Source of the DNA: Peristeroidobacter agariperforans
Lineage (GTDB): Bacteria > Pseudomonadota > Gammaproteobacteria > Steroidobacterales > Steroidobacteraceae
Direction: 5' to 3'
Length of the DNA stretch: 64,000 nucleotides
Assembly: GCF_004138335.1 (NCBI RefSeq)
Contig: NZ_RYFW01000002.1
Location: 477,501 to 541,500, forward strand
Part shown: piece by piece, positions 30,163 to 32,731 of the stretch
Position numbering within the stretch: the stretch's first letter is position 1
Layout of the letters: each line of letters opens with the position of its first letter
Notes under the pieces: model-generated
Database searches by the model: none
Told to the model about the DNA's origin: nothing
What the model saw: only the letters and a program-made list of their open reading frames with translations
Translations under genes and position numbers: made by a program

Positions 30163-31668
30163 ATGGATGGCCGGCCCATGACGGCTGCAGCGAGAGGCTC
30201 GCCCACGGAGCGCTATCGGCGTGAGCGGCCGCCCGTGAGCCGTGAGTGCGGCGATGAGCTGACCCGGATCACGGATGACATCGACGATCCCATCGTCAAG
30301 CTGCGCTATCTGCAGAACGCTCTCAACCAGAAGGACGATAAGAGCGCACTCGTGCAGCTCGTGCCGATCCCGCCGGCGCGTCGCGCGTGGTATCGGTTGA
30401 AAGGATTGCGCGCGCTCGATGCCGTCGCCGATGCCAATGAAGAAATTGCCGAACGCACGCTCGCGGCGCGACAGACCGCGCGCCGTGTTGTTGTCGGCGC
30501 GAGCGCGGCAGCGATGTTATTTGTTCCCGTGCTCGTGGCCATCGTTGCCTGGCAAGTCAATCGATGGCGCAGCGAGCCCGAGCAAGTCGTGTCCGTTGGC
30601 TCGTCCACGGAAGCGAATGCGAGTGCAATCGAATCCACGACGGCGACGCTCGTTGTGCCGCCCACGACGACGGCGACGCTGAACTCTCCAGCGTCTGCGG
30701 AAGAGGCGCCTGTCAATCAGCCGCCGGTGGCTGAACCGTTGGCCGCAGAAGACATTGGCATCGTGCCCAGCATGCTGTGGGTTGCAGATCGTGGGCCGGG
30801 CTGGGAGCTGTATAGCAACGGCCTGCGCATCGAGACGTCTTACACGGTAAAAGGTACGCCCCGCGACTATCGCGTGCAGACTCGCGACGGCAAGTTGCTA
30901 CCCACCAAATTCGATCGCCCCATCGGCATTCTGTTTCACACATCGGAAAGCGATCTGTGGCCGCTCGAGCCCGGCTACGAGCAAGAATTGCGCAAGGGCT
31001 CGGCAGCGTTGCTCCGCTTCGTCCAGCGCGAGCAGGCCTACAATTACATGATCGATCGCTTCGGCCGCGTGTATCGCATCGTCGATGACGACAGCCGCGC
31101 CAATCATGCCGGACACGGGGTGTGGTCCCGCGGCGATGAGGTTTATCTGGATCTGAATTCGGCCTTCCTCGGCGTATCGTTCGAATCCCGTTGGGAAGGC
31201 GGACGCACGTTGCCCATCACGCGCGCGCAGCTGATCGCAGGTCGCAATCTCACTCATTACTTGCGACAGCGATTCGCGATTGCGCCCGAGATGTGCGTGA
31301 CGCACGGGCTTGCGAGCGTGTCGCCGAAGCGTGGCTTGATCGGATATCACCTGGACTGGGCGCGCGGCTTTCCGTTCCAGGCGTTCGGCTTGCCGGATCT
31401 GTATTCGCAGCCGCTGCCGAGCGTGGTGCTGTTCGGCTTCAACTACGACAGTGAATTCTTGCGCACGATGGGCGAGCGCTGGCCCGGCCTGATTGCGGCC
31501 GAGAAGCAGCTTGCCGATGAGGCGCGTCAGCGCGCGATCTCGCTCGATGAATTAAGGCACGAGCGCCAGGCGCAATACCGCCGCTGGCGCGCGGCGCTTC
31601 CTACTCCCGCCGGGCCCGAGCCTGCGCTGGAGACACCAGCTTCACAGACGGCAGACAAAAGAGGGTAA
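30163..31668 (+). CDS. Membrane-anchored N-acetylmuramoyl-L-alanine amidase-like protein
   Basis: 501 residues. A cytoplasmic, mostly helical N-terminal part of about 110 residues is followed by one membrane helix (about 111-132, AAAMLFVPVLVAIVAW), a Ser/Thr/Pro/Ala-rich linker (about 145-195) and a periplasmic amidase domain of the Amidase_2 type (about 205-420). The domain contains GILFHTSESD with His259, YNYMIDRFGRVYRI, NHAGHG and THGLASVSPKRG with His381, then HLDWARGFPF with Asp398. His259, His381 and Asp398 are the candidate zinc ligands. A helical tail follows (about 440-490). ATG 30163 or 30178 may be the start. The actin-like gene begins 4 nt after its stop. Confidence 0.82.
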   Translation: MDGRPMTAAARGSPTERYRRERPPVSRECGDELTRITDDIDDPIVKLRYLQNALNQKDDKSALVQLVPIPPARRAWYRLKGLRALDAVADANEEIAERTLAARQTARRVVVGASAAAMLFVPVLVAIVAWQVNRWRSEPEQVVSVGSSTEANASAIESTTATLVVPPTTTATLNSPASAEEAPVNQPPVAEPLAAEDIGIVPSMLWVADRGPGWELYSNGLRIETSYTVKGTPRDYRVQTRDGKLLPTKFDRPIGILFHTSESDLWPLEPGYEQELRKGSAALLRFVQREQAYNYMIDRFGRVYRIVDDDSRANHAGHGVWSRGDEVYLDLNSAFLGVSFESRWEGGRTLPITRAQLIAGRNLTHYLRQRFAIAPEMCVTHGLASVSPKRGLIGYHLDWARGFPFQAFGLPDLYSQPLPSVVLFGFNYDSEFLRTMGERWPGLIAAEKQLADEARQRAISLDELRHERQAQYRRWRAALPTPAGPEPALETPASQTADKRG

Positions 31669-31672
31669 CGCT

Positions 31673-32731
31673 ATGGACGATCGTAACGACCACGGCTCGG
31701 AATCGTCGGGCTCCGGCAGCCACACTGGCCAGAGCCAGAGCGGCACCCGCACACGCATCGGTCTCGACGTGGGCACCAGCAAGGTGGTCTCCGCGCGCGG
31801 CGACAACGTTTCGCCGACCACCGACTCGCAGCTCAACGCGTTCTTCGACGTGCCGTACTCGGCGTTGCACGAGCAAGGGCTGAAGGCGAATCGCACGCCG
31901 TTCTATCGCGAGGACGACCGGCTGATCGTCTACGGCGATGCTTCGGAGAAATTCGCGCACATCTTCAACGCCAACGTGCGCCGGCCGATGGCCAAGGGCA
32001 TCTTGAATCCGCACGAACCGCAGGCCACGCACGTGCTCGAGACCGTCCTTGGCACGCTGGTGCCTGTGTCCAGGAATCCTGGCGAATTGCTGGCGTTCTC
32101 CGTGCCGGCCGCAGCGCCCGAGACGGGCCACGAGCTGACCTATCACGAAGAAACCATCAAGCGTTATTTGAAGGGTCGCGGTTATACGCCGCTCGCCGTC
32201 AACGAAGGTCTCGCGGTCGTGTTGGCGGAGCTCGCGAAGGAAGGCTTCACCGGCATCGGCATTTCCTGCGGCGGCGGCATGTGCAACGTCGCGATCTCGT
32301 ACTTGTCGATCCCGTCGCTCACCATGAGCCTCGCGCACGGCGGTGACTTCATCGATTCGTCGGTGGGGGCGGTCGTCAACGAGCCGGCCACGCGCGTCAA
32401 AGCGATCAAGGAAGAAACGCTGGATCTGACCCGCGAGGCCGGCGACAAGATCGACAAGGCGCTGCACATCTACTACGACAAGCTGATCGAGTCGCTGGTC
32501 GACGAGCTGGGCAAGGCCGTGCAAAAAACACCCAAACTGCCCCGCAACGACCAGCCCATGCCCATCGTCCTGGCGGGCGGCACGTCCAAGCCCAACGGTT
32601 TCCGGGACCGCTTCGAGAAGGCGCTGCGCCGCCGCTCCTGGCCGTTCCAGGTGGGCGATGTGCGCATGGCGAGCGATCCGCTGACAGCCACCGCCCGCGG
32701 CGCGCTGGTGGCGGCGCTGGCGGAGCGCTAA
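31673..32731 (+). CDS. Actin/Hsp70-superfamily ATPase (MreB/MamK-like), not assigned to a known subfamily
   Basis: 352 residues. A 27-residue Ser/Gly/His-rich N-terminal extension is followed by the actin-fold motifs: phosphate-1 IGLDVGTSKVV (about 29-39), connect-1 like VNEGLAVVLAELA, phosphate-2 GIGISCGGGMCNVAI (about 193-207), LAHGGDFIDSSVG similar to the MreB/MamK GGDxID element, and adenosine motif IVLAGGTSKPNGF (about 297-309). It is too divergent to name as MreB, ParM, FtsA or MamK by eye. The canonical Asp of phosphate-2 is replaced by Ser. It starts 4 nt after the amidase stop, strongly suggesting joint translation and a working partnership with that envelope protein. Confidence 0.82.
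   Translation: MDDRNDHGSESSGSGSHTGQSQSGTRTRIGLDVGTSKVVSARGDNVSPTTDSQLNAFFDVPYSALHEQGLKANRTPFYREDDRLIVYGDASEKFAHIFNANVRRPMAKGILNPHEPQATHVLETVLGTLVPVSRNPGELLAFSVPAAAPETGHELTYHEETIKRYLKGRGYTPLAVNEGLAVVLAELAKEGFTGIGISCGGGMCNVAISYLSIPSLTMSLAHGGDFIDSSVGAVVNEPATRVKAIKEETLDLTREAGDKIDKALHIYYDKLIESLVDELGKAVQKTPKLPRNDQPMPIVLAGGTSKPNGFRDRFEKALRRRSWPFQVGDVRMASDPLTATARGALVAALAER

Follow-up and report, generated by a model that had tools for sequence, protein, structure and literature searches.

In a 64,000-nucleotide (nt) stretch of the Peristeroidobacter agariperforans genome (contig NZ_RYFW01000002.1, positions 477,501 to 541,500; hereafter the window), an amidase predicted to be anchored in the membrane is encoded next to an actin of the Volactin family. 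We propose that the two proteins act together as a filament-guided cell wall amidase, perhaps at the septum, a reading to which we give a probability of about 0.6. An earlier note on this DNA had described a transmembrane (TM) amidase followed after 4 nt by a divergent actin-like ATPase, and had raised the idea of a cytoplasmic filament linked to wall cutting. The arrangement was borne out by the open reading frames (ORFs), Pfam, AlphaFold2, and Foldseek, and the interpretation as a whole is partly supported by the analysis below.

Layout and reality of the gene pair

The amidase gene (window positions 30163..31668; all features described here lie on the + strand) encodes a 501-residue membrane-anchored Amidase_2 protein, identified from its ORF, its Pfam match, an AlphaFold2 model searched with Foldseek, and an alignment of 34 family members. 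The actin gene (31673..32731) encodes a 352-residue protein, identified from its ORF, Pfam, AlphaFold2, and Foldseek. By our reading of the sequence, the 3′-terminal codons of the amidase gene contain a Shine-Dalgarno-like AGAGGG (31660..31665), which ends 7 nt 5′ of the actin ATG. Coupled translation of the two genes is plausible, and we infer that they may also be co-transcribed. The start codon of the amidase gene is uncertain, with in-frame ATGs at 30163 and 30178.

In alignments, 33 amidase relatives were 28-91% identical to the window amidase and 40 volactin relatives were 31-97% identical to the window volactin. The nearest named relative in our scan was Steroidobacter agaridevorans, the actins being 99% identical. 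When the window pair was compared with four related loci (L013, L014, L015, L016), the majority of nucleotide changes fell at third codon positions; relative to L013, changes at codon positions 1/2/3 numbered 38/18/142 in the amidase gene and 14/4/70 in the actin gene. Because of these identity ranges and the excess of third-position changes, we conclude from the comparisons that the pair consists of real genes and not of chance reading frames. The same genome additionally holds its own MreB (488 bits), an AmpD, and one Amidase_3 gene, and its AmpD-looking protein is a stronger Amidase_2 match than the window amidase.

A remnant of a phage or mobile element, with an endolysin-like amidase beside a phage actin, could in principle give such a pair, and the amidase does have weak PHROGs endolysin matches (best E 1.6e-4). 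The volactin, however, matched nothing in PHROGs at E up to 1, the pair has been kept in at least two phyla, and changes in Steroidobacter are mostly at third positions, so that we find this origin hardly credible.

Conservation and co-occurrence of the pair

A pattern scan for the actin across 84,980 species genomes, which finds close relatives only, yielded 44 loci: 8 in Gammaproteobacteria, 35 in Acidobacteriota, and 1 labelled Desulfosudis. At 39 of the 44 a family amidase adjoins the volactin gene on the same strand within 306 nt, upstream at 37 loci and downstream at 2. (Apparent gene overlap at L027 and some other loci is false, the ORF caller having over-extended the actin.) The genomes of the remaining five (L033, L036, L038, L050, L054) hold a family amidase elsewhere. 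The gene-neighbourhood survey suggested in the earlier note thus finds the pairing conserved. L050 and L053, which by their shared accession prefix belong to a single Bryobacteraceae assembly, come from a genome with two copies each of volactin and amidase, the L053 pair being linked and the L050 pair unlinked.

We also sampled genomes irrespective of gene presence from the order of the window's organism, from Acidobacteriota, and from Pseudomonadota. The first sample comprised 40 genomes from the genus, family, and order to which the window belongs, its own among them: 9 hold both genes, 31 hold neither, and none holds one alone; all 9 belong to the window's genus, in which 5 more genomes hold neither. 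Of 199 Acidobacteriota (the phylum of L023), 7 have a volactin above the family cut-off and 6 a strong amidase match, distributed as both in 5 genomes, volactin only in 2, amidase only in 1 (G197, where the amidase is a fragment at a contig end), and neither in 191 (Fisher p 5e-8, a statistic that ignores kinship). In 398 Pseudomonadota we found 16 genomes with a volactin above the cut-off and a strong amidase match in the window's genome only. Volactin matches below the family cut-off were not counted (1 genome in the window's order, 10 in Acidobacteriota, 86 in Pseudomonadota), and weak domain-level amidase matches of 41-55 bits were set aside as ordinary Amidase_2-looking proteins, in 4 of 10 Acidobacteriota (G057, G086, G221, G245) and 5 of 6 Pseudomonadota genomes. 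Nearly all or all amidase candidates were scored in the window-order sample and in the genomes of the unlinked loci.

The actin is a member of the Volactin family

Against Pfam, the window actin matched Volactin (PF25216) with 276.3 bits (cut-off 35; E 5.5e-82), residues 29-348 of the protein covering positions 3-321 of the 321-position profile. By this match it is a member of a named actin family, known from the shape actin of the archaeon Haloferax. The window volactin is 36-38% identical, over 87% of its length, to volactins encoded on haloarchaeal plasmids. The actin fold proposed in the earlier note was confirmed by an AlphaFold2 model (mean predicted local distance difference test score (pLDDT) 87.6; predicted template modelling score 0.85).

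The best Foldseek matches to the model were MamK, BeeR, and MreB. A single volactin sequence found no match in the PDB at E up to 1, and a volactin profile searched against PDB sequences reached MamK and MreB. The closest solved folds are thus those of filament-forming actins, which favours the idea that the window protein may form filaments as well. Although MreB and MamK are among these folds, their family profiles do not claim the window actin: MreB_Mbl was unmatched at E up to 1 in Pfam, and the NCBIfam MamK model scored 25 bits against a cut-off of 400. The actin also had no match to Hsp70 chaperones or sugar kinases at E up to 1 in Pfam and NCBIfam. The earlier note had named a grouping with such families, and a lack of conserved pairing, as checks on its reading, and neither check went against it.

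Two peculiarities had been pointed out in this protein. The first was a Ser in place of the phosphate-2 Asp, and Ser198 does occupy the Asp position in the phosphate-2 loop GIGISCGGGMCN (32252..32287). The residue is, however, common to all 41 volactins of our alignment, which include two archaeal sequences, from Haloarcula and Natrinema (HVO_2015 is not among the 41), so that judging from the alignment the Ser is a hallmark of the family and not an oddity of the window protein. The second was a Gly/Ser/His-rich N-terminal extension, which is present (residues 1-24; 31673..31744), is probably disordered (pLDDT <50), and is specific to a lineage, being confined to Steroidobacter-type volactins. 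Vicinamibacteria-type volactins carry a different N-terminal extension (..DHLWKV..); such varied extensions distinguish bacterial from archaeal volactins.

A conserved motif in the predicted cytoplasmic head of the amidase

The window amidase matched Pfam Amidase_2 with 48.3 bits (cut-off 26) and scored below cut-off against the AmpD equivalog NF008758 (21.3 bits, cut-off 143). Its AlphaFold2 model (mean pLDDT 82.2) has a helical head and an AmpD-like part at residues ~203-480, and the best Foldseek matches were AmpD, AmpDh2, and AmiD. A profile of the 34 aligned amidase relatives, searched against PDB sequences, found AmiD, a clostridial endolysin, AmpDh3, and AmpDh2. (The amidase tree has 49 rows, from which these 34 were chosen by omitting sequences that were truncated, near-identical, or unlinked and some that were added later.) The protein is predicted to comprise a cytoplasmic head, one TM helix (residues 109-127; 30487..30543; hydropathy 2.54), and a periplasmic amidase-type domain with C-terminal helices (residues ~203-480; 30769..31602), where pLDDT is mostly >90 and Foldseek matched AmpD 2y28 at E 7.2e-6. 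At the same hydropathy threshold, one hydrophobic segment was found in 30 of the 34 family members and none in 4, and Arg107, just ahead of the TM helix, is invariant.

The head is variable except for a stretch of ~15 residues at codons 40-54 (30280..30324), which in the alignment reads approximately I-x-D-P-x-x-[RK]-L-[RK]-[FY]-L-R. Within its core, P-x-x-[RK]-L-[RK]-[FY], Leu47, [RK]46, and [FY]49 are kept in 34 of 34 members and Pro43 in 31. The [RK]-L-[RK]-F portion is also present in all five unlinked amidases (L102, L103, L104, L106, L107), in two of which (L106, L107) the motif Pro is replaced by Asp. Conservation of a cytoplasmic patch in an enzyme of the periplasm is most easily understood if the protein has a partner in the cytoplasm. 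The protein found to co-occur with it is volactin, and we therefore propose this motif as a candidate docking site for the actin. Its retention in an otherwise mostly divergent head supports the functional pairing of the two proteins.

The gene linkage could also reflect co-regulation only, the two proteins contributing to a common process (stress response or wall recycling, for instance) with no contact between them. In favour of this, five loci lack an adjoining amidase though the genome holds one, and gene order is reversed at two. Nevertheless, co-occurrence persists when the genes are unlinked, and a purely periplasmic enzyme would have no need of a conserved short cytoplasmic motif, so that we regard co-regulation without contact as quite improbable.

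The amidase active site departs from that of AmpD

We aligned the window amidase with the AmpD of its own genome and four other proteins. His259 (30937..30939) and His381 (31303..31305) align with the two His that we take to be the first and second zinc ligands of AmpD, and Glu341 aligns with the AmpD Glu. No substitution of these three residues, or of His315 in the HAG motif, occurs among the 34 family members. The columns of the AmpD Lys and Asp, which are presumably the catalytic residue and the third zinc ligand, are not conserved. Near the position of the lost Asp lies His396, in the motif GYHxDW (31348..31350), also invariant in 34 of 34 and a candidate substitute for the third zinc ligand. 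Amidase activity is likely, then, and is not assured.

These departures speak for another reading, in which the amidase-type domain no longer cuts and instead binds peptidoglycan, tethering the volactin filament to the wall across the membrane for shape or positioning. Some wall proteins of hydrolase families have been reported to have lost metal binding and become regulators (PMC10945521). On the other hand, His259, His381, Glu341, and His315 are all invariant, a further invariant His lies near the lost ligand, and the SPOR genes that adjoin some of the pairs (described below) imply denuded glycan, the product of an amidase (PMC6895207). We consider a non-cutting tether possible but unlikely, and retain a working, filament-guided amidase as the preferred reading.

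SPOR-domain neighbours and HU-type extensions in the Blastocatellia clade

Twelve Blastocatellia-clade loci (L026, L030, L031, L032, L037, L039, L040, L041, L043, L048, L052, L100) have a gene for a SPOR-domain protein immediately upstream of the amidase gene. The upstream proteins share a common profile match; the Pfam SPOR domain was found in 4 of 4 scanned and one TM segment in 11 of 11 tested. The clade has five further rows: L029 is truncated by the end of its contig, nothing at L035 matches the profile, and at L033, L036, and L038 the amidase gene itself is absent from that place. SPOR domains are reported to recognise glycan from which the peptides have been removed, the product of division amidases at the septum (PMC6895207). 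A SPOR gene beside the amidase gene therefore points to septal work, at least in this clade, and the presence of the SPOR protein at 12 loci strengthens the link between filament and hydrolase.

At eight loci of the same clade (L033, L035, L036, L038, L041, L048, L052, L100) an HU/IHF-like stretch is in frame at the start of the volactin ORF. The HU-type domain PF00216 was above cut-off in the two that were scanned (L033, E 4.7e-14; L041, E 4.6e-7), and the other six were identified by reading. All eight ORFs have GGAGG and an ATG just ahead of the volactin part, because of which both the fusion and a short volactin may be made from these loci. No HU-type extension was seen in the listed Steroidobacter, Vicinamibacteria-type, or Bryobacterales-type volactins. 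Downstream of the volactin gene at L033, L036, and L038 are a conserved membrane-like protein and a hemA-like gene (clusters c30 and c31, named by reading).

The HU-type domain raises the question of whether volactin mainly moves DNA, in the manner of ParM or salactin, with the amidase coupling division to segregation. We consider this very unlikely, since the extension is missing from the listed members of the other three groups and no recurrent centromere-binding-like partner was noticed among the neighbours, most of whose clusters were not searched for families. A bolder variant of the filament-guided amidase gives the same domain a different role: an ATP-driven actin filament bound to the head would turn the amidase on from inside the cell, the SPOR protein would read the product, and the HU-volactin fusion would tie the filament to the nucleoid, so that wall splitting awaits DNA clearance. 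Such a system would amount to a division checkpoint built on an actin; we found no description of one in the literature searched, and as a whole we hold this variant to be rather unlikely.

Trees of volactin and amidase

On the volactin tree, the presence of the amidase requires one change, separating 48 rows with from 16 without (the two archaeal rows being scored as without from their 4-kilobase (kb) flanks alone), and the dividing branch has support of 100/100 in a second tree that left out MreB, L097, and L099. L019, whose C-terminus diverges, is not among the rows of the volactin tree. Only one MreB outgroup row (L124, of 11 candidate loci) passed the motif filter, and its branch length was 10, so we do not trust the root of the volactin tree.

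Steroidobacter-type loci (L012-L019) group with Vicinamibacteria-type Acidobacteriota (L020-L028, L096) with support of 100/99 in volactin and amidase trees alike. Because of this shared grouping and the patchy presence of the pair in the window's genus, the trees suggest that both genes were transferred together between phyla, with the direction and the roots uncertain. Pairwise identities of volactin and amidase are correlated (r 0.79 over 48 loci; Mantel 0 of 1000).

Other neighbours and volactins of other lineages

At the Steroidobacter loci, recurrent neighbours beyond the pair are mostly common to close relatives. One neighbour cluster, c2, consists of ORFs antisense to volactin; clusters c4, c7, c12, c16, c24, and c25 also recur.

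Pseudomonadota of another class hold a second bacterial volactin group (L084-L095), in whose genomes no family amidase was found among the candidates scored. The 12 volactins fetched, of 15 (G292, G320, and G324, the last a fragment, were left out), have the motif GLDVGTMN, as do the two archaeal members. Six of these 12 loci have a neighbour (c5) encoding a small protein with a hydrophobic N-terminus, for which one scanned member had no Pfam match, and six have a FimV-like neighbour (c6; PF25800 confirmed in L091).

The Haloarcula volactin gene (L056:2869-3825) is preceded by a DUF7139 gene (PF23600, E 1.3e-40), and in the Natrinema locus (L057:2971-3894) a gene annotated as a permease takes that place. 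Judging from these positions, it is possible that this gene encodes a membrane partner of archaeal volactin.

Discussion

We picture the two genes as one module. Volactin would polymerise in the cytoplasm, and the helical head motif of the amidase (~residues 40-54) would bind the polymer. The filament would then gather, place, or switch the periplasmic amidase domain, which would strip stem peptides from peptidoglycan at chosen sites. The septum of dividing cells, or else some other region where the wall is remodelled, is the likeliest of these. The SPOR-domain membrane protein encoded upstream in the Blastocatellia clade would recognise the denuded glycan left by the amidase.

Several observations weigh against this proposal, beginning with the departure of the active site from AmpD set out above. 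Volactin does not need the amidase, as is evident from three sets of genomes or loci. A family amidase was not found in the 15 of 398 Pseudomonadota that have a volactin and belong to another class, nor in the two volactin-only Acidobacteriota (G111, G195), where an amidase could be missed in that at most 4 candidates per genome were scored in Pseudomonadota and 8 in Acidobacteriota; when every candidate was scored in 4 of those 15 and in G111 and G195, none was found. Similarly, no relative of the amidase was found within 4 kb of the two haloarchaeal volactin genes read (L056, L057). Of the 1128 comparisons, the 967 in which volactin identity is <60% give a correlation of identities of only 0.34, and shared descent explains part of this correlation and of the co-occurrence. 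SPOR linkage is limited to the Blastocatellia clade (12 of 17 rows), with none in Steroidobacter. Finally, the analysis establishes the identity of the genes, their conservation, co-occurrence, order, and spacing, and the conserved head motif, together with a predicted single TM helix and predicted folds; from these we infer polymerisation, binding of the head to the filament, catalysis, and the site of action alike. The link between filament and wall cutting put forward in the earlier note thus gains from the conserved pairing and the SPOR genes and is our best reading, but it has to accommodate an altered active site and a bacterial volactin clade that does without the amidase.

The window actin and HVO_2015 of Haloferax volcanii belong over their full length to the same Pfam family. 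Archaea lack a bacterial-type peptidoglycan wall polymer. HVO_2015 has been reported to form dynamic filaments in the cell (PMC10869688). The amidase, in turn, shares the Amidase_2 fold with AmpD, AmiD, and AmpDh2/AmpDh3 as well as the aligned zinc His and Glu, and differs from them in its predicted membrane anchor and cytoplasmic head.

The general design has a precedent in bactofilins, which are nucleotide-free beta-helix polymers. Bactofilin BacA and LmdC, a polymer and a single-pass membrane hydrolase, are encoded in one putative operon, and a short conserved cytoplasmic tail of LmdC, an M23 endopeptidase, is reported to bind bactofilin, so that the enzyme is recruited by the polymer (PMC10945521). 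Both systems combine a cytoskeletal polymer gene with a membrane hydrolase that has a conserved cytoplasmic segment, the binding being a proposal in our case. LmdC is a DD-endopeptidase, whereas the window pair joins an actin of the ATPase fold to an Amidase_2 domain, and we claim no sequence kinship: neither protein of the window pair matched bactofilin or M23 peptidase families at E up to 1 in Pfam and NCBIfam. By analogy, we propose that the window pair works like bactofilin-LmdC without being a member of that module. In another system, FtsA-FtsEX-EnvC, an ATPase system inside the cell, in contact with the actin-like FtsA, is reported to control division amidases outside. The connection there runs through an ATP-binding cassette transporter and the activator EnvC to separate amidases, whereas in the window protein head, TM helix, and amidase form one chain. 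The earlier note knew of no description of such a system, and among the best matches in the open-licence PMC literature, judged by titles and abstract openings, we found no description of a volactin-amidase pair; the design as such is known from bactofilin-LmdC (PMC10945521).

The volactin family is thus present in walled bacteria, closely tied there to a membrane amidase and, at some loci, to a SPOR protein. Provided that the link is direct, the actin would have a wall hydrolase dedicated to it, a parallel to bactofilin-LmdC built from other parts. The volactin family gains a testable partner, and the pair offers a handle on wall remodelling or division in Acidobacteriota and Steroidobacter. 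For the soil and water bacteria that carry it, the pair suggests that a filament inside the cell steers the place at which the wall is cut.

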